Below, piece after piece: positions 38,429-49,915 of a stretch of DNA of 64,000 nt. Location: NCBI RefSeq assembly GCF_014196495.1, contig NZ_JACIDT010000001.1, positions 248,001 to 312,000 of the forward strand, read 5' to 3'. The notes beneath the pieces are model-generated. The model saw only the letters and a list, made by a program, of their open reading frames with translations, was not told the DNA's origin and did no database searches. Position 1 is the first letter of the stretch; each line of letters opens with the position of its first letter. A program made the translations under genes and the position numbers. Source of the stretch: Sphingobium jiangsuense (GTDB lineage: Bacteria; Pseudomonadota; Alphaproteobacteria; Sphingomonadales; Sphingomonadaceae).

Positions 38429-38458
38429 ATTGTCAATCGAATTACTTGATTTTATAGG
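38429..38458 (+). promoter_or_regulatory. Sulfur-type promoter of sbp-cysTWA
   Basis: TCAATCGAATTACTTGA (38433-38449) followed after three bases by TATAGG (38453-38458). The left end also forms ATTGTCAAT (38429-38437). A closely related 17-mer plus TATAGG stands before the thiol dioxygenase operon (minus strand, 54833-54809). The predicted start near 38465 leaves an 18-base leader to ATG 38484. Confidence 0.6.
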
Positions 38459-38483
38459 TCGGCCATTATCCGGGAGAATGACA

Positions 38484-39503
38484 ATGCAGCGCCGCCCCCT
38501 CATCACCGCCATCATGGCCACCCTGGTGCTGGGCATCGCCGCATGTTCCGGCTCCGGCGGCAACAAGGCGAACTCGGTCCAGATCACCAACGTTTCCTAC
38601 GATCCGACGCGGGAGCTGTATCAGGCGATCAACCCCGCCTTCGCCACCTATTGGAAGCACAAGACCGGGCAGGACGTCACCTTCCGCATGAGTCATGGCG
38701 GGTCCGGCAAGCAGAGCCGCGCGATCATCGACGGGCTGGAGGCCGACGTCGCCACGCTGGCGCTGGGGTACGACATCGACGCGATCGCCGAGCGGGCGAA
38801 GCTGCTGCCGCAGGACTGGCAGAAGGCGCTGCCCGACAACAGCGCGCCCTATACCTCGACCATCGTCTTCCTCGTCCGCAAGGGCAATCCCAAGGGCATC
38901 AGGGACTGGGGCGATCTGGTGAAGCCGGGCGTGCAGGTCATCACCCCCAATCCCAAGACCAGCGGCGGCGCGCGCTGGAATTTCCTCGCCGCATGGGTCT
39001 ATGGCCGCAAGGCGGGCGGATCCGACGCCGCCGCCGAAGCCTATGTGAAACGCCTGTTCACGCAGGTGCCGGTGCTCGACAGCGGCGCGCGCGGCTCCAC
39101 CACCACCTTTGTCGAGCGCGGCATCGGCGACGTGCTGCTGGCGTGGGAGAATGAGGCGTTCCTCGCCGAAAAGGAACTGGGCGCGGGCAAGTTCGAGATC
39201 GTCATGCCGTCCATCTCCATCCTTGCCGAACCCCCGGTGGCGGTCATCACCGCCAATGCGAAGAAGCACGGCACGGAAGAGGTCGCCAAAGCCTATCTGG
39301 AATATCTCTATACCCCCGAAGCGCAGACCGCGATCGCGCATAATTTCTACCGCCCGCGCAACCCGGAGGTCGCCGCCCAGTTCAAAAAGCAGTTCCCGGA
39401 CATCAATCTGGTGACCGTCGACGAGGCGTTCGGCGGCTGGGCCAAGGCCCAGAAGCAGTTTTTCGACGATGGCGGGGTGTTCGACCGCATATACGGGAAA
39501 TAA
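38484..39503 (+). CDS. sbp: Sulfate ABC transporter substrate-binding lipoprotein
   Basis: A 339-residue periplasmic sulfate/thiosulfate-binding protein. A signal peptide ending LGIAAC suggests a lipoprotein. [48 protein letters not shown] (partly quoted), [16 protein letters not shown] and the C-terminal YRPRNPEV are Sbp hallmarks. The start at 38484 is preferred to 38478 because GGAG (38473-38476) is then 7 bases away. It is followed by the two permeases and the ATPase. Confidence 0.95.
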
Positions 39504-39545
39504 GCGGACCATCCCCACCTCCTTCTATCGAGCAGGCCTCTGCAG

Positions 39546-40397
39546 ATGACTTCACTTTCCCTCTCGCGCGGGCGCTGGCGCCAGCCTTCCGTGCTCCCCG
39601 GTTTCGGATTGACCTTTGGGGTTTCGGTGATCTGGCTGTCGCTGATCGTCCTCATCCCGCTCGCCACCATCTTCCTCCGATCGGCGGGAATGGGCTGGTC
39701 GGATTTCGTCGCGGCGGGCTTTTCCGACCGGGCGCTGGCCGCCTACAGGCTCAGCTTCGGCACCGCCGCCGCCGCAGGGCTGGTCAATGTCGTGTTCGGC
39801 CTGCTCATCGCCTGGGTGCTGGTGCGATACAGCTTCCCCGGCAAGCGGGTGATCGGCGCGCTGGTCGACCTGCCCTTCGCGCTGCCCACCGCCGTCGCGG
39901 GCATCGCGCTGACGACCATCTACGCGCCCAGCGGCTGGATCGGCCAGTTCCTCGACCCGCTGGGGGTGAAGGTGGCGTTCACGCCGCTCGGCATCACCAT
40001 CGCGCTCATCTTCATCGGCCTGCCCTTCGTCGTCCGCTCGGTGGAGCCGGTGCTGGCCGACATGGGGCTGGAGGTCGAGGAAGCGGCCGCGACGCTGGGC
40101 GCGGGGCGCGCGCAGACCTTCTTCCGCATCATCCTGCCCTCGATCCTGCCCGCGCTTATCACCGGCTTCGCGATGGCGTTCGCGCGCGGCGTCGGCGAAT
40201 ATGGGTCGGTCATCTTCATTTCCGGCAACATGCCCGGCAAGACGGAGATCGCGCCGCTGCTCATCGTCACCCAGCTGGAGCAATATGCCTATGACGGGGC
40301 GACCGCGATCGCGACGGTGATGCTGGTCGTGTCCTTCGCGATCCTGCTGCTGCTGAACGGCTATCAGACGCTTCGCCGCAGGAGGATGGGCGCATGA
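39546..40397 (+). CDS. cysT: Sulfate ABC transporter permease CysT
   Basis: A 283-residue inner-membrane permease with about six helices and the EAA loop [24 protein letters not shown] that docks the ATPase. [14 protein letters not shown] and [19 protein letters not shown] are typical of CysT/CysU. It overlaps cysW by four bases (ATGA). Confidence 0.95.
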
Positions 40398-41229
40398 GCA
40401 TTCATCGCTCCACCACCGAAAGGCGCGCGACCCGGATATTGCTGATCCTCGTCGCGCTCGCCTTCCTCGCCTTCTTCCTGCTGCTGCCGCTGATCGCCGT
40501 GTTCGGGGAGGCGCTGAAGCAGGGCATCGGCGGCTTCGCCAATGCGGTGACGGACCCGGACGCGCAATCCGCGATCCGGCTGACGCTGATGGTCGCGGCG
40601 ATCAGCGTGCCGCTCAACATGGTCTTCGGCGTCGCGGCGAGCTGGGCGATCAGCAAATACGACTTCAAGGGCAAGAGCCTGCTCGTCACCCTGATCGACC
40701 TGCCCTTTTCGGTGTCGCCGGTCGTGTCCGGCCTCATCTTCGTGCTGCTGTTCGGCGCGCAAGGCTATCTGGGACCGTGGCTGGCCGATCATGGCATCCG
40801 GGTGATCTTCGCCGTGCCGGGGATCCTCCTCGCCACCATCTTCATCACCTTCCCCTTCGTCGCGCGGGAGCTGATCCCGCTGATGCAGGAACAGGGCCGC
40901 GCCGACGAGGAAGCCGCGCTGTCGCTCGGCGCGAGCGGCTGGCAGACCTTCTGGCGCGTGACGCTGCCCAATATCCGCTGGGGGCTGCTCTACGGCGTGC
41001 TGCTCTGCAATGCGCGGGCGATGGGCGAATTCGGCGCGGTGTCGGTGGTGTCCGGCCATATCAGGGGCGAGACGAACACCATGCCGCTGCATGTCGAGAT
41101 CCTCTACAACGAATATAATTTCGTCGGCGCCTTCGCGGTCGCCTCGCTGCTGGCGCTGCTGGCGCTGGTAACCCTCGTCGCCAAAAGCGTTCTCGAATGG
41201 CGCTTCGACCTCCACTCGGGAGCCAAGCA

Positions 41230-41233
<4 letters not shown>
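40394..41233 (+). CDS. cysW: Sulfate ABC transporter permease CysW
   Basis: A 279-residue permease pairing with Cys[21 protein letters not shown], the EAA loop [24 protein letters not shown], and [18 protein letters not shown] mark it as CysW. The stop overlaps the TTG start of cysA (TTGA). Confidence 0.95.
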
Positions 41234-42180
<947 letters not shown>

Positions 42181-42220: not shown

Positions 42221-42330
42221 AACCGTTCGCCCCGAGCTTGTCGACCCGAAGGGCGACCAAGGGTCAACGGCTGCTTTTCTCTTGGGGCTAGAAGAAGGAC
42301 AGGGCTTCGACAAGCTCAGCCCGAACGGTT
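42221..42330. repeat. Dispersed repeat family B, copy 3
   Basis: The arms start AACCGTTCG and end CGAACGGTT, with CGAGCTTGTCGA near the left end and TCGACAAGCTC near the right forming a long imperfect palindrome. The centre contains GAAGAAGGACAGGGCTTCGACA, shared with copy 1. It lies directly after cysA and 57 bp before repeat A copy 2. Confidence 0.75.
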
Positions 42331-42387
42331 TGCTTGTGTCAGTTTTGGAGAGGAAGCATGAGCGGCATATGGCCGCAGCCCCCTTTG

Positions 42388-42463
42388 TCGCCCCAGCGCA
42401 GGCTGGGGCCGCTGGCCATGTCGCGCTCCATCTCCTGAGATGCCAGCCTGCGCTGGCATGACG
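42388..42463. repeat. Dispersed repeat family A, copy 2
   Basis: A 76-bp unit identical at both hairpin ends to 9461-9536 and similar in the middle (CTCCTGAGATGCC shared). As at 9.5 kb, it is next to a family B repeat, here in the opposite order. Confidence 0.75.
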
Positions 42464-42574
42464 TGATGGGCCGAAGGCGATCGCCCACCCCAAAAGAAAA
42501 GCTTCACCCGCCGCAAAGAAGGATTGCGAGACATTTGACAACCGATTGAGTAGAGAAATCACAGGCACCCGCCT

Positions 42575-42671
42575 CGCGGCTTTTGATTCATGTCAGCTTG
42601 CTCCGCGTCACCAACGGCTAAAGCGCACGAATCCCTCGCGACAACGCCGGCTTCGTGTTCCGCACAAGGAG
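42575..42671 (+). ncRNA. Candidate structured leader RNA (SAM-II-like core)
   Basis: CGCGG (42575-42579) pairs with CCGCG (42603-42607) around a 23-base loop that contains TTTTGATT and ends in GCTTGCT. It is followed by ACCAACGGCTAAAG (GCTAAAG at 42617-42623). The order stem, TGATT-containing loop, GCTTGC, stem, CAA, GCTAAA is that of SAM-II riboswitches as I recall them. A second hairpin, CACGAA/TTCGTG (42626-42631, 42652-42657), sits between this core and the AAGGAG of the next ORF. The loop differs in detail from SAM-II and the distance to the ribosome site is longer, so the class is uncertain. Confidence 0.4.
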
Positions 42672-42678
42672 AATACGA

Positions 42679-42834
42679 ATGACCCGATCCGCCCCCCGAC
42701 GTCCCCGCGCCAACGCCGTTCCCCCGCGCGCGGCGCCCTTGCCTCATCCCTCATGGCTCCGGTACAACCCGGACGCGCCCTCCCCTGCGCAGGCCATCAG
42801 GGCCGATGAATTCTGGGCAAGGCTGGGCATATGA
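42679..42834 (+). CDS. Small 51-residue protein of the sulfur cluster
   Basis: An ORF with a strong ribosome site (AAGGAG 42666-42671, 7-base spacing) 30 bp before the nitroreductase gene. The protein begins MTRSAPRRPRANAV, has a Pro-rich middle (PLPHPSWLRYNPDAPSPAQ) and ends IRADEFWARLGI. It has no signal or membrane segment. The balanced, motif-like C-terminus suggests a real protein rather than a mere leader peptide. Function is unknown. Confidence 0.6.
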   Translation: MTRSAPRRPRANAVPPRAAPLPHPSWLRYNPDAPSPAQAIRADEFWARLGI

Positions 42835-42864
42835 TTCCCCCTTTATCATAAAAGGACATCCCAT

Positions 42865-43470
42865 ATGAGCACCCATCTCCGCTCGACGCCCTTCGCCGTC
42901 GATCCGCTGTTTCTGGAACGCTGGTCGCCGCGCGCCTTCGACGGGACGTCGATCGACGAAGAGCAGCTGCTGACCCTGTTCGATGCCGCGCGCTGGGCGC
43001 CGTCGGCCTTCAACTACCAGCCGTGGCGGTTCGTCTACGCACAGCGCGACAGCGCCGTGTGGCAGGAGTTCCTCGACCTGCTGCTGCCGTTCAACGCCGC
43101 CTGGGTGAAGGATGCCGCCGCGCTCATCTTCGTGCTGTCCGACACGCTGATCGTGCCGCCCGGCAAGTCGGAGGCGCAGCCGGCGACCAGCAACAGCTTC
43201 GACGCGGGCGCCGCATGGGCGCTGCTGGCGTTGCAGGCGCGGCGCCTCGGCCTTCACACCCATGCGATGGCCGGGTTCGACCAGGCGAAGGCACGCGGCT
43301 ATTTCGACCTGCCGGACCGCTACCGGATAGAGGCGGCGATCGCCGTCGGCCATCTGGGCGACAAGGGCAAATTGCCGGAAGCCTTGCAGGCGCGCGAAGT
43401 GCCGAGCGACCGCCTGCCCGTCGAGGCGCTGGCGTTCCGCGACGGCCTGCCGGACGATCTCGCCGGGTAG
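42865..43470 (+). CDS. Nitroreductase-family flavoprotein
   Basis: A 201-residue FMN-dependent NAD(P)H oxidoreductase. FLERWSPRAFDGTSIDEEQLLTLFDAARWAPSAFNYQPWRF (partly quoted) contains the conserved RSxRxF-like start and the SxxNxQPW FMN site. ALQARRLGLHTHAMAGFD is the later family block. It could supply reduced flavin to the two monooxygenases further along, or reduce a sulfur compound; either is inference. It precedes epsC by 7 bases. Confidence 0.82.
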   Translation: MSTHLRSTPFAVDPLFLERWSPRAFDGTSIDEEQLLTLFDAARWAPSAFNYQPWRFVYAQRDSAVWQEFLDLLLPFNAAWVKDAAALIFVLSDTLIVPPGKSEAQPATSNSFDAGAAWALLALQARRLGLHTHAMAGFDQAKARGYFDLPDRYRIEAAIAVGHLGDKGKLPEALQAREVPSDRLPVEALAFRDGLPDDLAG

Positions 43471-43477
43471 TGCCAGG

Positions 43478-44458
43478 GTGGAGGGCTATTTCGATCTCGA
43501 TCCGATCGTCGCGCGGCTCAGCACCATTCGCCGGAACTGGCGGTCGGTGCAGGCCCATCATGGCGAATATGGGGAAGACAGCTTCCCCTCGCGCGGCGAT
43601 CTCGGCAAAATCATGGGGGCACTGTGCGGGGCGCTGTTCCCGCTGCGCCTCGGCCCGGCCTTCGTCCGGCTGCACAATGAGGACGCCTTCGTCGCGCAGA
43701 CCCTCCAGACCGCCTTGTCGCGCCTCTACGGGCAGATCCGGCTGGAGCTGATCTATGCGGCCAGCGACATCTCCCACAGCGCGATCGACAGCCAGGCCGC
43801 GCAGATCATCGCCGATTTCGCGCAGGCGCTGCCCGATCTGCGCCTGCTGCTCGACACCGATGTGGAGGCCGCCTTCCTCGGCGACCCGGCGGCGCGCAGC
43901 GTCGATGAGGTGCTGATCTGCTACCCCTCGATGCTGGCGATCATCCACCACCGGCTCGCCCACCATCTCCACGGGCTGGGCGCGCCGCTGGTCGCCCGCA
44001 TCATCTCCGAGCTTGCGCACGGCAAGACCGGCATCGACATCCACCCCGGCGCGCGGATCGGCGAAGGCTTCTTCATCGACCACGGCACCGGCGTGGTGAT
44101 CGGCGAAACGGCGATCGTCGGCAAGCGGGTCCGGCTCTATCAGGGCGTGACGCTGGGCGCGCGCAGCCTGCGGCTCGGCACGGACGGCGTGACGGGACGG
44201 GGCGAGCGCCGCCACCCGGTCATCGAGGACGATGTCGTCATCTATGCGGGCGCGACGATATTGGGCCGCATCACCATCGGGCAGGGGTCGGAGATCGGCG
44301 GCAATGTCTGGCTGACCAGCAGCGTGCCGCCCGGCAGCCGCATCACCCAGGCCCATGTCGAAAACCGCGTCACCGCGATCAGGATGAACGGCAGGCAGGC
44401 CCCGGCCGCCTCCGTGACCGCGGCGGTTCCCGGCCCGAAGGACCAGCCGCCCGGCTGA
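43478..44458 (+). CDS. epsC: Serine O-acetyltransferase, EpsC type
   Basis: A 326-residue enzyme making O-acetylserine from serine and acetyl-CoA, the acceptor for sulfide in cysteine synthesis. The N-terminal helical part (ALFPLRLGPAFVRL) is followed by the left-handed beta-helix, with GIDIHPGARIGEGFFIDHGTGVVIGETA (partly quoted; catalytic His-Asp) and YQGVTLGARSL. The long N-terminus marks the EpsC rather than E. coli CysE form. The start is GTG 43478. A strong terminator follows. Confidence 0.93.
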   Translation: MEGYFDLDPIVARLSTIRRNWRSVQAHHGEYGEDSFPSRGDLGKIMGALCGALFPLRLGPAFVRLHNEDAFVAQTLQTALSRLYGQIRLELIYAASDISHSAIDSQAAQIIADFAQALPDLRLLLDTDVEAAFLGDPAARSVDEVLICYPSMLAIIHHRLAHHLHGLGAPLVARIISELAHGKTGIDIHPGARIGEGFFIDHGTGVVIGETAIVGKRVRLYQGVTLGARSLRLGTDGVTGRGERRHPVIEDDVVIYAGATILGRITIGQGSEIGGNVWLTSSVPPGSRITQAHVENRVTAIRMNGRQAPAASVTAAVPGPKDQPPG

Positions 44459-44555: not shown

Positions 44556-45356
44556 TCACAATATGTCGGAATGGCCGACGACTTCCAATATGCGCCGCCG
44601 CAACTCCACGAAATGCCGGTCGTCGCGGTGGCGCGGATAGTCCAGCCCGACCTCGAAGGAGGCAGCGATCCGCGCCGGGCGGGGCGTGAAGACCAGCACC
44701 CGCTGGGCCAGCAGCAGCGCCTCCTCCACATCATGCGTGACCAGCAGCGTGGTGAAGCCCGCATTCTGCCACAGCCGCAGCAGCTCGGCCTGCATCGTCA
44801 TCCGGGTGAGCGCATCGAGCTTGCCCAGCGGCTCGTCCAGCAGCAGCAGGCGCGGGTCGTTGACCAGCACGCGCGCCAGCGCCGCCCGCTGCGCCATGCC
44901 GCCCGACAGCTGGTTGGGATAGGCGTCGGCGAAGCCGTCCAGCCCGACGAGATGCAGCACCTCGTCCACCCGGCGCGCGCGATCGGCGATGCCGCGCGCC
45001 TCCAGCCCCAGCCCCACATTCTGCCGCACCGTCCGCCACGGATAGAGCGTCGGATCCTGGAACACGAGCAGGCGCGACGGGTCCGGCCCGACGATCCGTA
45101 CGCCGTCGGCGCCGATCTTGCCCCGGCCGGGCTGTTCGAGCCCGGCGAGCAGGCGCAGCAGCGTGGACTTGCCGCAGCCGCTCGGCCCCAGCAGCGCGAC
45201 GCACTCGCCCGGCTCGACGGTGAATGTCACATCGTCGAGGACATGGAGCAACCCGCCGCCCGGCGTCGGGTAATGATGGCTGACGCCGCGTATCTGCGCG
45301 CGGATGCCGACCGGGGACGGCGCCTCGCGCGTCAGGGGAACCGTCACCGCGCTCAC
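44556..45356 (-). CDS. SsuB/TauB-type ABC transporter ATPase
   Basis: A 266-residue ATPase of the nitrate/sulfonate/taurine importer family. Walker A is GPSGCGKST, the signature LSGGMAQRAALARVL, Walker B LLLLDEPLGKLD and the H-loop VTHDVEEAL. VFQDPTLYPWRTVRQNVGLGL is typical of SsuB. GTG 45356 overlaps the permease stop (GTGA). It is the last gene of a leftward permease-coupled operon. Confidence 0.9.
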   Translation of the reverse strand: MSAVTVPLTREAPSPVGIRAQIRGVSHHYPTPGGGLLHVLDDVTFTVEPGECVALLGPSGCGKSTLLRLLAGLEQPGRGKIGADGVRIVGPDPSRLLVFQDPTLYPWRTVRQNVGLGLEARGIADRARRVDEVLHLVGLDGFADAYPNQLSGGMAQRAALARVLVNDPRLLLLDEPLGKLDALTRMTMQAELLRLWQNAGFTTLLVTHDVEEALLLAQRVLVFTPRPARIAASFEVGLDYPRHRDDRHFVELRRRILEVVGHSDIL

Positions 45357-46372
45357 CACCGCACCAGCTCCTTCTGCCAGGCGAGAACCCTGTCGCGCAC
45401 GAGGAACAGCAGGGAGATGAGGCCGGAAAACAGCAGCGCCATCAGGATGAGGACGCCGTAGAGATTGGCATAGGCGGCCCACCCTTGCGCCCATTGCAGG
45501 TAGAAGCCCAGCCCGGCCTTCACCCCCATCATCTCCGCGACGATCAGCACCGCGAAGGACGCGCCCAAACCCATGAACAGGCCGACGAACACGCTGGGCA
45601 GCGCGGCGGGAATGGCGATGCGGGCGATCAGGAAACGCTCATTGGCGCCGAGCGTGCGGGCGATGTCGTAATAGGCGCTGTTGACGCCGCTGATGCCCGA
45701 CGCGGTCAGCACCGCGACCGGAAAGCCCGTCGACAGCGCGATCAGGAAGATGCTGGCGCTGTTGGCCGACGGGAAGAAGAAAAAGGCGACCGGCAGCCAG
45801 GCCGTTGCGGGCAGCGGGCCGACGATGCGCAGGATCGGGTGTCCCCAATAATGAACGGTGCGCGACCAGCCGATCGCCACCCCCGCGCCGAAGCCGGCAA
45901 GCGCCCCGGCGACGAAACCGGGCACCAGCAGCCAGGCGGAATACCAGAGGCTTTCCAGCAGCCGCGCATAATCGTCGGTATAGACTTCCAGTATCGACTG
46001 CGGCGGCGGGAAGAAAGGCAGGGGCAGCAGCGCGGTCTTGGCGGTGAGGACGACCCACACCGTCAGCAGCGCGCCCAGCGCCACCAGCCAGCGGCCCGCC
46101 GGATGGAAATAGCGCACCTGCCGCGTCCGCCCGCCGAATATCGCCGCGCCCAGCAGCAGCACGCCCAGCGCGCCCTGCGCCATGGCGAGCAGCGGCGTGC
46201 GCGCCCAGGGGGAGAGATCCGGCCAATGATAGTTGATCGCCGACCCCGCCAGCCACACCGTCGCGGCCACCGCGCCGGTGGTCCAGAAGGGCGGGGCTTC
46301 CCTCGCGGCCGGCCAGTCGGCGGTGGCGGCGATCGCGGGAAGGTCGGGGGCATGATGCGCAATGTCGTTCAT
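45353..46372 (-). CDS. SsuC/TauC-type ABC transporter permease
   Basis: A 339-residue permease. It has an N-terminal extension of about 90 residues with two extra hydrophobic segments before the usual six-helix SsuC core. SILEVYTDDYARLLESLWYSAW, the EAA-type DIARTLGANERFLIARIAIPAALP and WAAYANLYGVLILMALLFSGL are family blocks. It starts 26 bases after the binding-protein stop. Substrate: probably an organosulfur compound, given the neighbours. Confidence 0.9.
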   Translation of the reverse strand: MNDIAHHAPDLPAIAATADWPAAREAPPFWTTGAVAATVWLAGSAINYHWPDLSPWARTPLLAMAQGALGVLLLGAAIFGGRTRQVRYFHPAGRWLVALGALLTVWVVLTAKTALLPLPFFPPPQSILEVYTDDYARLLESLWYSAWLLVPGFVAGALAGFGAGVAIGWSRTVHYWGHPILRIVGPLPATAWLPVAFFFFPSANSASIFLIALSTGFPVAVLTASGISGVNSAYYDIARTLGANERFLIARIAIPAALPSVFVGLFMGLGASFAVLIVAEMMGVKAGLGFYLQWAQGWAAYANLYGVLILMALLFSGLISLLFLVRDRVLAWQKELVRW

Positions 46373-46398
46373 GATGGGGCCCTTCGGCTGGAACGGGA

Positions 46399-47472
46399 TC
46401 AGGTGAAGAGATTCTGGACGGTGCGCTCGGCGAAGCGTTGCGGGTCGGTATCCGCCTTCATCACCCCGATGTCGCGCAGTTCCCCGGCGTACAGGGCGAT
46501 ATCGCCGATCAGGTCGGTGCCGACCGGGTGCACGCCATGGGTCTGCGTGCGCAGCACCCCGGCAATATCCTCGACGCTCGCCTTCGCATAGGGCGCGAAC
46601 AGGCGGGCGGTCTGCTCCGGGTCGCCCTGGCACAGCTTCGCGGCCTGCACCAGCGAGGAAGCCAGCGCGCGGGCGCTTTCCGGGTCGTCCCGCAACAGCG
46701 ATCCGCCCGCCCCCACCACGCAGCAGACGCGGCGGTCCCACGGCTTGGTCAGGTTGCTCAGCACCTCGACCAGATCGCCGCGCGAATCCTGCTCCATCTT
46801 GTAGAGGATCGGGTCGGAATCGGCGATCGCCTGCACCTCGCCCTTGCGGATCGCCTCGCCCAGCAGCGGCTGGGGATAGGCGCGCCACTCGACGTCGCGC
46901 TTGGGGTCGAGCCCGTGATATTTCAGCAGCACCGCGAAGGTGTTGAACGCCGCGCCGTTGATGTCGGACAGACCGATCACCTTGCCCGCAAGGCTCTTCG
47001 GATCGGGCGTGACGCCCGCCGCGCGCGACCCCGACATGCGGATGCACCCGCCATGCGTGCCCGCGATCAGCCGCACGTCGAACCCCTGCTCCAGCGGCTT
47101 GATCCAGCGCATGATCATGCCGATCCCCGCATCCGCCTTGCCGGTGGAGAGCGCCTCCAGCATCTGGTCGGTCGGCCCGGCGAAGTTGAACAACTCGACC
47201 TCCAGCCCATGGTTGCGGAAGATGCCGAGTTCCTTCGCCAGCAGCACCGGGGCGAGGCAGATCGCATTGGCGTTCCACGCGAGGGTCAGCTTGCGCAGCC
47301 CGTCGGCGGTATAGGCGCGTTCGGGCGCGCGGCGTGCGAGGCCGACGCCCAGCGCCCCCGCCGCCAGCGCCACGCCCCCGCCGATGAGCAGCGCGCGCCG
47401 CCCCGTCAAAGCGCGCGCGGCGAGCGGCGGCGGTTCGGCTATGTCGTCGGGCACATGCTGTATCTCGGTCAT
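46399..47472 (-). CDS. SsuA/TauA-type ABC transporter substrate-binding protein
   Basis: A 357-residue periplasmic binding protein. An N-terminal TGRRALLIGGGVALAAGALG looks like a Tat-type (twin-arginine) signal. KLTLAWNANAICLAPVLLAKELGIFRNHGLEVELFNFAG (partly quoted) and STGKADAGIGMIMRWIKPLEQG match the NMT1/SsuA-like fold. It heads the importer operon. The ligand is not readable; sulfonates or sulfate esters are likely from context. A 9-bp tandem repeat (GGAGCGAAA twice, 47517-47534) sits upstream. Confidence 0.88.
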   Translation of the reverse strand: MTEIQHVPDDIAEPPPLAARALTGRRALLIGGGVALAAGALGVGLARRAPERAYTADGLRKLTLAWNANAICLAPVLLAKELGIFRNHGLEVELFNFAGPTDQMLEALSTGKADAGIGMIMRWIKPLEQGFDVRLIAGTHGGCIRMSGSRAAGVTPDPKSLAGKVIGLSDINGAAFNTFAVLLKYHGLDPKRDVEWRAYPQPLLGEAIRKGEVQAIADSDPILYKMEQDSRGDLVEVLSNLTKPWDRRVCCVVGAGGSLLRDDPESARALASSLVQAAKLCQGDPEQTARLFAPYAKASVEDIAGVLRTQTHGVHPVGTDLIGDIALYAGELRDIGVMKADTDPQRFAERTVQNLFT

Positions 47473-47567
47473 CGAACGATCCGGCCAGAGGGTCCTGCGC
47501 CAGCGATGCTAGTGCAGGAGCGAAAGGAGCGAAAATTGGCTTTGCTCATATGGATATCCGCAACGCT

Positions 47568-47593
47568 CATCGGGAATGCGGCCCTTCCCGATG
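47568..47593. other. Perfect 9-bp hairpin between the TonB and importer genes
   Basis: CATCGGGAA-TGCGGCCC-TTCCCGATG lies 25 bp downstream of the TonB receptor stop (47618, leftward). No T run follows, so it may stabilise or attenuate rather than terminate. Confidence 0.5.
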
Positions 47594-47617
47594 GCGATGC
47601 CCCTTGGGTATGGGCAC

Positions 47618-49915
47618 CTAGCGGAAGGTCTTGCTGAGGGTGATATTCACCATCCTCGGCAGGTTGTAGGCGGCATAATGGTTGGGATAGACGCCCGAAT
47701 TATTGGGCGTGTAGGTTAGCATCTGCGCCCGCCGCAGGTCGAACAGGTTGGTCACGTAGAGCCCGGCCGCCCAGTCCCCGTCCTCGCTGGTGTAGTTGAT
47801 CGTCCCGTTGACGAACAGCTGCTTCTGGATCCGCGTCTGCGCGGTGTTGTAGATGTCGGACCAGCGCGCCGATTCATATTGCGCGTCCAGTCCGATCCGC
47901 CACGCGCCCTCGACGCGCAGCGGCAGCCGGTAATTGACCGCCACCGAGGACTGCCAGCGCGGCGCCAGCGGGAATTCCAGCCCGACGAGCGTGGTGCGGC
48001 CCGGCAGGTTGGCGGGCAGCACGGCGGAGAAATTCTTGTAGGCGGTCTTGAGCCAGGCGGCGGACGCATCGATGCGCAACCCGTCGAACGGCAGCGCCGA
48101 CAGCTCGAACTCCGCCCCGTAGGTCTCGCCGCTGGCGGCGTTCAATATGCCGCTGAACGACGGGGTCGTCGGCGTCGCGGGCGATGTCGCGCGGACCTGC
48201 AAATCCTTGATCGCATTGTGGAAGACGGAAAGGTTCGCGGTCAGGTTGCCGCCCGCCAGCGTCGATTTGAGGCCGGTTTCCCATGTCGTGATGACCTGCG
48301 GCCGATAAGGCTGGGACGATCCGACCAGCGAACTGGAGCGCAGGTCGAAGCCGCCGCTCTTGAACCCCTTGGACCAGGACAGATACTGGAACAGCTCCGA
48401 CGCCCATTGCGCCTGCAAACCGACCTTGGGCGAGAAGTTGGAGAAGCTGCGCCGTTCCGGGCGGACATCGTAATTATTCTGGAACGGACCGAACAGGTCG
48501 GCATAGACGCGCGGGTCGTAATCCCATTCCTGCGGATGGTGGAGCGGCACGCTGACGCTGGTGCTGATCAGCGAGCGGAAGCCGCGCCGGTCCTGCGTCC
48601 AGCGCCCGCCCAGCGTCAGCGTGAAGCGGTCGTCGAACGCGTATTTGGCCTGCCCGAACACCGAATAGCTGGTGGTCCGCAGCCAGTTCTGGACCGCCGA
48701 CACCGACCCCACATTGTCCACCGTCGACCCCGCCGCCTGGCTCAGGCGATCGTTCATGAAATATTCGTAGAAATAATAGAAGCCGAGGACGAAGTTCAGC
48801 TTCTCATATTCGCCGTTCAGGTTGAGTTCCTGCGTTTTCTGATATTGCCGGAAACCGGCATGGCTGTCGCCCTTGATCGCCTGCACGCCGTCATTGTCGT
48901 AATAAATGGGGCCGTCGAGGCCGCGATAGGCCGTCACCGACTTCAGCACGAGATGATCGTCCACCTCGTATCGCAGGGTCAGCGATCCGCCATAGGCGTT
49001 GGTGTAGTTATAGGGCAGGGTGTTCGACCAGGTGAGGTCGGGATCGGTCCGGTTGCCCGTGCCCGTCACGCCGTCGGGCTGGTTGATCGGCGTATAATAG
49101 CTCTGCGTCGAGCGGTCGAACATCGCATCGGCGGAAAGGGTGACCGTCAGCCGGTCGGTCAGCCGCGACTTCAGCTTGCCGCGCAGCACCCAGAGATCGA
49201 GATCGTTCACATCGCGGTTGAGGGGGACGCTCCAAGTCCAGCCGTCGCGGACATGGCGGATCACCGAAAGCGAACCGTTGAGCTTGTCATCGGCGAGAAT
49301 CCCGCCATTGGCCCGCAATTTCAGGTTCACATTGTCGAACGAGCCATAGCTGCCGCTGACGTAAAGCTCCGGTTCGGCGGTCGGATCCCTGGTGATGAAG
49401 CGGATCGCGCCCGCGCTGGAATTGCGGCCGTAGAGCGTGCCCTGCGGACCGCGCAGCACCTCCACCCGCTCCAGGTCCGGCGCATCGTAGAGCGACCCCA
49501 CGGTGCGGGCGAGATAGACATCGTCGACATAGACCGCGACCGTCGGTTCGGGATAGGTGTCGGTTTCGCCGATGCCGCGGACGGCGTAGGTCTGCGTCGT
49601 GTAGGCGGTGGAGCGCTTGGGCGCGAGCAGGCCCGGAATCCGGCCGGAGAGATCGCGGAAGGTCGCGACCTGCTGCTGCTCTATGCCGTCGGAGGTCAGC
49701 GCCGTCACCGCGATCGGCGTACGCTGCACGCTTTCCTCGCGGCGGGAGGCCGTCACGATGATGTCCAGCCCGCCCGAAGCCTTTTCCGCATCGGCCAGCG
49801 GCTGCTCCGCCACGGCATCCGCCACCTCTTCCGCCGCCAGCGCTGGCGCCGCGAGCAATGCACCGATACCTGCCCCGGCCAGCCACCGGACCATCAGCCT
49901 TTTCGAATATATCAT
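47618..49915 (-). CDS. TonB-dependent outer-membrane receptor (organosulfur island)
   Basis: A 765-residue receptor. A signal peptide ends at about ALAAEE. The plug begins DIIVTASRREESVQRTPIAV, with VRGIGETDTYPEPTVAVYVDDVYLAR and VLRGPQGTLYGRNSSAGAIRFITRDP (partly quoted). A 22-strand barrel follows, ending VNITLSKTFR. A canonical TonB box is not obvious. The position between an SsuABC-like importer and sulfur monooxygenases suggests it imports a sulfur compound, not iron. ATG 49915 has a weak ribosome site; ATG 49894 is possible. Two AT-rich dyads lie over the promoter. Confidence 0.92.
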   Translation of the reverse strand: MIYSKRLMVRWLAGAGIGALLAAPALAAEEVADAVAEQPLADAEKASGGLDIIVTASRREESVQRTPIAVTALTSDGIEQQQVATFRDLSGRIPGLLAPKRSTAYTTQTYAVRGIGETDTYPEPTVAVYVDDVYLARTVGSLYDAPDLERVEVLRGPQGTLYGRNSSAGAIRFITRDPTAEPELYVSGSYGSFDNVNLKLRANGGILADDKLNGSLSVIRHVRDGWTWSVPLNRDVNDLDLWVLRGKLKSRLTDRLTVTLSADAMFDRSTQSYYTPINQPDGVTGTGNRTDPDLTWSNTLPYNYTNAYGGSLTLRYEVDDHLVLKSVTAYRGLDGPIYYDNDGVQAIKGDSHAGFRQYQKTQELNLNGEYEKLNFVLGFYYFYEYFMNDRLSQAAGSTVDNVGSVSAVQNWLRTTSYSVFGQAKYAFDDRFTLTLGGRWTQDRRGFRSLISTSVSVPLHHPQEWDYDPRVYADLFGPFQNNYDVRPERRSFSNFSPKVGLQAQWASELFQYLSWSKGFKSGGFDLRSSSLVGSSQPYRPQVITTWETGLKSTLAGGNLTANLSVFHNAIKDLQVRATSPATPTTPSFSGILNAASGETYGAEFELSALPFDGLRIDASAAWLKTAYKNFSAVLPANLPGRTTLVGLEFPLAPRWQSSVAVNYRLPLRVEGAWRIGLDAQYESARWSDIYNTAQTRIQKQLFVNGTINYTSEDGDWAAGLYVTNLFDLRRAQMLTYTPNNSGVYPNHYAAYNLPRMVNITLSKTFR

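Follow-up and report, generated by a model that had tools for sequence, protein, structure and literature searches.

The window analysed here, a 64,000-nucleotide stretch of the 4.8 Mb genome of Sphingobium jiangsuense, contains a structured leader in front of a 51-aa small-protein ORF, a nitroreductase gene and epsC, which raises the question whether these genes lie behind a riboswitch of the SAM-II type or behind another sulfur-responsive RNA. An earlier note, made from the sequence alone, had favoured a divergent SAM-II. By direct reading of the sequence, all pieces named in that note could be located (Table 1), and they follow one another in the order of the SAM-II core. In our reading, to which we assign a probability of about 75%, the leader is a compact translational variant of SAM-II, in which a pseudoknot would bind SAM and an exchange between the hairpin H3 and an anti-Shine-Dalgarno (anti-SD) pairing would lower the translation of the first ORF.

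Table 1. Coordinates of the features at the leader locus. Positions are those of the window, except for the last row, in which the locus is given with the position.
Feature	Position	Strand	Evidence
Possible transcription-factor site, degenerate match to the 21-bp palindrome TCTCAAC-N7-GTTGAGA	42536..42556	+	By eye
Putative compact SAM-II-type aptamer core	42574..42626	+	Model R1, 72.6 bits, E 5.3e-15, the window sequence itself being one of the 43 model sequences; blastn conservation
P1 5′ strand CGCGG	42575..42579	+	P1 covariation
TTTTGATT	42581-42588	+	Sequence
UUU, equivalent of the SAM-V third-strand U8-U10	42582..42584	+	UUUG in 76/76 compact rows; SAM-V contacts as given in excerpts of PMC6061858
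P2a 5′ strand	42593..42594	+	Inner pair standard in 99/99 rows, outer pair broken in 17/99
P2 5′ strand GCUUGC (DNA GCTTGC)	42596..42601	+	Alignment to RF00521 and R1
P1 3′ strand CCGCG	42603..42607	+	P1 covariation
Loop 3, 9 nt (Rfam consensus: 11)	42608..42616	+	Sequence, alignment to the Rfam consensus
CAA	42612-42614	+	Sequence
P2 3′ strand GCUAAAGC including the SAM-contact letters UAAA	42617..42624	+	GCUAAA in 137/137 distinct cores, partly demanded by the search pattern
GCTAAAG	42617-42623	+	Sequence
Hairpin H3 5′ arm GCACGAA; first two bases double as P2a 3′ strand	42625..42631	+	Pairing analyses
Hairpin H3 3′ arm UUCGUGU, common to the anti-SD pairing	42652..42658	+	Pairing analyses
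Anti-SD arm UUCGUGUUC, complement of GAAUACGAA at 42671-42679	42652..42660	+	Predicted pairing
Shine-Dalgarno AAGGAG	42666..42671	+	Sequence; ATG at 42679
51-aa small protein, conserved family PLPHPSW ... FWxRLG-L/I	42679..42834	+	Without Pfam or NCBIfam family
Nitroreductase-family protein	42865..43470	+	PF00881, E 8.3e-24
Serine O-acetyltransferase EpsC	43478..44458	+	NF041874, 161.6 bits against a cut-off of 150
65-69-aa small proteins	L159:4293-4493, L161:4192-4401, L162:4256-4453, L165:4246-4443		By eye

The genes upstream of the element (38430-42180) encode, according to Pfam, an ABC ATPase with two permeases and a solute-binding protein, and these transporter genes are presumably of the sulfate type. 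Past epsC, the minus strand (44556-49915) carries a TonB-dependent receptor gene (47618-49915, Pfam) and, by eye, ABC-transporter-like ORFs. Visual inspection of 42224-42330 and 42390-42459 further showed two GC-rich palindromes of the CCCAGCGCAGGCTGGGG type, together with an inverted pair around TTCGACAAGCTCAGCCCGAACGG; they look like dispersed intergenic repeats, and the palindromes gave sub-threshold CRISPR-repeat matches. A sigma-70 promoter scan returned no promoter. A leader ORF starting at ATG 42590 within the variable loop was rejected, as most relatives do not have that ATG.

The search with the SAM-II and SAM-V models that had been proposed as a check yielded no hit: with the Rfam models nothing was found in the window at gathering scores, and for 42300-42900 neither SAM-II nor SAM-V nor any other SAM family was listed at E<=10. 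The Rfam SAM-V model gave no match at E<=2 across 12 loci, and RF00521 was above its cut-off in none of 149 Sphingomonadaceae genomes. The alignment to RF00521 holds letter by letter, the core pairing off with the alphaproteobacterial SAM-II consensus of Rfam as CCGUGGuGAUUUG..GGCUUGCAgCCACGUUAAAcAAgUCGCUAAAgAGGCC against CCGCGGcUUUUGA..CAGCUUGCuCCGCGUcAcCAAcgGCUAAAGCGC, and the pieces UUUG, GCUUGC, CCRCG, CAA and GCUAAAG have the identical order in the Rfam SAM_alpha consensus. The idea that the loop order is altered was therefore dropped; spacing and the 3′ extension are what differ. The extra hairpin described between GCTAAAG and the ribosome site is present and is referred to as H3.

A blastn search with a 181-base query detected 29 places (E<=3.6e-6) in 22 of the 149 Sphingomonadaceae genomes, six of which carry two or three copies each. 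The matches fall chiefly within 42575-42661 of the window, and the remaining ones (E 0.01-1) look like chance. One of the 29 places, L037, is missing from the hand listing; R1 scores it at 67.5 bits. With a degenerate 29-letter pattern, at least 120 stretches of named genomes were matched; among the matches listed, Sphingomonadaceae predominate, accompanied by Microvirga, an Acetobacteraceae strain and Hwanghaeella. The pattern also occurs in 23 plasmid records, 13 of them from Azospirillum and others from Sphingobium, Roseomonas, Sphingomonas, Novosphingobium, Niveispirillum and Tistrella, and it had no match in the phage records searched. One locus of the pattern set, L064, is incomplete. 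Since the pattern fixed the P1 3′ strand and most of GCUAAAGC, the conservation of both is partly circular in this set and less so in the hits of the covariance model R1. This model was built with P1 as its sole structure from 43 cores, picked by hand for diversity from 138 parsed, the window among them. At 39 bits or more, R1 identified 87 places in 69 of 385 Alphaproteobacteria genomes, covering 37 families; strong hits were obtained in 22 of the 149 Sphingomonadaceae genomes and a hit of 28 bits in one further genome. Of 299 genomes from the phylum, 12 matched R1 at E<=0.001, every one in the class of the window. Within the window's genome R1 found no second copy, so that 42574-42626 is the sole one. 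The conservation is far beyond chance, and GCTAAA is kept across the leaders, as the earlier note had expected.

Single-sequence folding could not have revealed the element, because the fold has a z of 0.38 against shuffles and the minimum-energy structure contains neither P1 nor the pseudoknot. In the alignment A3 of 107 matches (99 distinct), which also takes in canonical SAM-II rows that raise the covariation, every P1 cell is paired, with changes on both sides in four of the five pairs. Over the whole structure, 54 cells show two-sided changes; shuffles gave 7.2 and sliding never more than 7, and the P1 covariation was not equalled in any of 500 shuffles. The 76 distinct compact rows, computed separately, contain three P1 pairs with two-sided exchanges (in 3, 4 and 4 rows) and no broken cells. 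P2, formed by GCUUGC with GCUAAAGC, is nearly invariant, so that covariation speaks neither for nor against it and P2 is assigned by homology; of the covariation expected for both stems, the part concerning P1 was thus confirmed. The inner pair of P2a varies by one C-G to U-A change, and the outer pair is broken in the window because its bases are U-C. A pseudoknot formed from the 5′ GGCUUU and AAAGC was rejected, as its 5′ side is not kept (L013, L020), whereas GCUUGC is. P1 and P2 make up an H-type pseudoknot in the SAM-II letter order, supported by covariation for P1 and by homology only for P2, and comparison of the sequences shows both the pseudoknot and P1 to be homologous to those of SAM-II.

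The equivalents of the nucleotides that contact SAM, namely the third-strand UUU, the UU of P2 (42598-42599) and the UAAA (42619-42622), were tested and are retained; UUUG is found in 135 of the 137 distinct cores. In SAM-V, a U:A.U triple favours SAM over SAH according to excerpts of PMC6061858. Since these contacts are kept, SAM is the expected ligand, and the gene context points to it as well.

Nine first genes behind R1 copies were run against NCBIfam. MetX, MetZ, MetY, MetE, CysG and a sulfate-binding protein were above the curated cut-off, and MetA, MetF and a nitrite/sulfite reductase matched below it. The Azospirillum copies are located upstream of metQ-metN-metI-metQ (metN is not listed in one record). 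Clusters of the ORFs behind 175 instances were built by script and their families checked on single members with Pfam and NCBIfam; the commonest are TonB receptors (47), glutamine amidotransferases (20), MFS/GPH transporters (16, mostly second in line), EpsC (13), MetQ (11), MetY (11) and TauD-type dioxygenases (10). Several small clusters (c8-c12) look like antisense ORFs and were left out, and a sulfatase-like member stayed below its NCBIfam cut-offs. Copies of the element are located upstream of methionine and sulfur genes. In the window, epsC may be controlled by the element, and the suggested tie to the supply of O-acetylserine would run indirectly or via the operon, because the 51-aa ORF directly behind the switch and the nitroreductase gene precede epsC.

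The strict form of the palindrome given in Table 1 was found in 20 of 174 related upstream regions, counted without weighting for relatedness, compared to 0.1 in mononucleotide shuffles. It sits 44-82 nt before P1 and is probably the operator of a sulfur regulator; the site of the window fails the strict pattern. At L005 and L016, ORFs on the opposite strand near the element resemble Rrf2-type regulators by eye, and these would be candidates for the protein acting at the palindrome.

In many leaders the main gene does not come first after the element; its place is taken by a conserved small protein of about 50 aa, as in the window, by a very short ORF, or by a peptide whose cysteine codons crowd just ahead of the stop. 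The family of the 51-aa protein has 41 distinct members with PLPHPSW and a C-terminal FWxRLGL, and its codons vary synonymously, including serine TCN/AGY. In the 149 genomes, all seven strong hits to this protein (E<=4.3e-10) lie directly behind an R1 element, compared to none of the six weaker hits (E>=3.9e-5), and a PDB profile search with it gave no match. In Azospirillum, Roseomonas and Tistrella the element is followed by a second type of small protein, 65-69 aa long, noticed by eye; three of these tested with Pfam had no match save a sub-threshold one to DUF6894 for one of them.

In the non-sphingomonad set, 51 of 101 distinct leaders (one of the 101 being the window) open with an ORF of 3-45 codons, and 42 of these 51 ORFs contain cysteine. 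Counted without weighting for related sequences, cysteine accounts for 94 of the 485 residues (19%) encoded by the last ten codons, compared to 13 of 715 (2%) in the remainder, and the cysteine share is 8.9% in frame, 5.4% in the +1 frame and 1.7% in the +2 frame. Ahead of TonB receptors the first ORF usually has 5-11 codons. NCBIfam assigned no family to six leader peptides. Leader peptides with cysteine codons clustered right before the stop were also seen in the stretch that separates the element from metQ or another gene, e.g., at L158 and L159 (both from 4095), L160 (from 4090) and L165 (from 4073), among others. From these sequences a two-input leader can tentatively be proposed, in which the SAM aptamer would control initiation on an ORF that reads the cysteine supply, and in which this ORF would have become the protein of about 50 aa in sphingomonads. 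If this is true, a single leader weighs SAM and cysteine.

For the switching, SAM would, as it does in SAM-II and SAM-V, bind to the H-type pseudoknot of P1, P2 and the UUU third strand and would stabilize P2 together with the short P2a, which would occupy bases at the foot of H3. H3 would thereby be weakened, and its 3′ arm would pair with the SD and start region instead, so that less of the first ORF would be translated. High SAM would then mean less of the small protein and perhaps, via the operon, also less nitroreductase and EpsC. The 3′ arm of H3 (CACGA...UCGUG) doubles as the partner of the SD/start-codon pairing. Of the 175 instances, 170 had an SD and start usable for the pairing analyses and 168 for SD openness. 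Pairing within an instance was 8.01 for H3, compared to 7.04 (sd 0.11) with partners permuted, and 7.43 for the anti-SD, compared to 6.72 (sd 0.10), all 100 permutations being below the observed value in each case; related sequences are unweighted here, and kinship may inflate the result. In shuffles of single instances, the anti-SD pairing reached p<=0.05 in 19% of the 170, with a median of 0.3. G42625-C42626 are contested by P2a and H3. Of the 168 instances, 35 lost more than 0.05 of predicted SD openness when the P2a bases were blocked, and 9 gained; the leader of the window went from 0.41 up to 0.55, contrary to the repression model. The exchange between H3 and the anti-SD, as modelled, has statistical support, and its coupling to SAM via P2a may be suggested. 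Repression by SAM is the best guess because of the gene context.

The same fold could also act in the opposite direction: SAM would turn the first ORF on by stacking of H3 on P2, which would expose the SD, and the main gene would be lowered as the leader ORF is translated. H3 directly adjoins P2, and blocking the P2a bases in the window leaves the SD unclosed, as this would predict. It would, however, make the copies directly before MetY, MetX, MetE and MetZ SAM-induced, and both SAM-II and SAM-V are OFF switches according to excerpts of PMC1273637 and PMC6061858, so that we consider an ON switch rather improbable. It is very unlikely that SAH, methionine, cysteine or O-acetylserine takes the place of SAM in the pseudoknot; the cysteine genes EpsC and CysG do occur among the contexts beside methionine genes, but the equivalents of the triple by which SAM-V prefers SAM over SAH, as described in excerpts of PMC6061858, are kept. 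The very high sequence conservation and the palindromic site upstream of some copies would also suit a leader that is read by a protein or acts as a DNA site. Given the compensatory changes in P1 and the homology to a proven aptamer, we regard this as extremely unlikely.

The leader could still be simply a drifted SAM-II riboswitch of the usual kind that deserves no name of its own. The core letters and their order are identical, and intermediates exist under both models: weak R1 hits that overlap Rfam SAM-II places include G227:C89:78251, G207:C14:68534 and G278:C1:737593, and strong R1 places scoring as weak or marginal SAM-II are G282:C1:194272 (36.8 bits at a cut-off of 36) and G333:C205 (37.9). 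In the genomes up to G333, two of 44 strong R1 places are above the Rfam cut-off. Mere drift is nevertheless unlikely, as the 5-bp P1, the 9-nt loop 3 and the absence of a long P2a recur across 37 families and tandem loci hold compact beside canonical-like copies. The divergent SAM-II of the earlier note is borne out by the alignment to RF00521, the intermediates, the P1 covariation, the SAM-contact letters and the gene context, which support the assignment of the element as a compact variant of the SAM-II riboswitch at the sequence level.

Using Rfam models, a survey of 2014 found SAM_alpha only in Rhizobiales and Rhodobacterales, as far as excerpts of PMC4239095 state. It covered 7 genomes of Sphingomonadales and 9 of Rhodospirillales, with SahR regulons in 7 of each, and according to the same excerpts many methionine genes were without a known regulator. 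A SAM-II-type switch in Sphingomonadaceae was previously not on record there, and no report of the compact variant was found in the open-access literature searched. The variant, which the standard model mostly misses, fills part of the gap left by the survey; it would link sulfur scavenging by way of TonB receptors, TauD-type dioxygenases and serine acetyltransferase to SAM in sphingomonads, and it places small ORFs behind a riboswitch. As a comparative finding the variant is sound; SAM is its expected ligand, and its switching is uncertain.

With SAM-II (RF00521, SAM_alpha) the element shares the order and letters of the core, the P1-P2 pseudoknot, the SAM-contact nucleotides and the methionine and sulfur genes. 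SAM-II has a P1 of 6 bp, a loop 3 of 11 nt and a longer P2a helix, whereas the element has 5 bp, typically 9 nt and 2 bp; unlike SAM-II, it carries the hairpin H3 ahead of the SD and is mostly below the Rfam cut-off. SAM-V, as described in excerpts of PMC6061858, PMC9481103 and PMC2704228, resembles the element in its short 2-bp P2a, which most rows of the element have, its place behind SAM-II in tandem and its ligand contacts, and the element may likewise exert control near the ribosome site. It differs by a P3 stem-loop between P1 and P2, which is absent from the element with its 9-nt loop 3, and by an SD in P2a instead of behind H3, and the element has no listed Rfam SAM-V match.

For 14 of 84 strong copies, a weaker SAM-II-like R1 hit starts 120-233 nt upstream on the same strand. 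Among 16 loci scanned, an upstream copy was above the Rfam cut-off in five and the compact copy in none. According to excerpts of PMC9481103, SAM-II/SAM-V and double SAM-II leaders combine termination first with ribosome-site control second, and by analogy the compact form would fit as the translational partner in tandems. The 44 tandem SAM-II riboswitches counted in these excerpts likewise have two SAM-II-type aptamers per leader; here the second is the compact form. Cysteine leader peptides such as the uORFC-8-2 motif, as presented in excerpts of PMC8632094, share a short ORF, clustered cysteine codons and a following sulfur-related gene. The leaders described here differ from that motif in that the small ORF of the window is free of cysteine and the SD of the peptide would lie inside the expression platform of a SAM-type aptamer.
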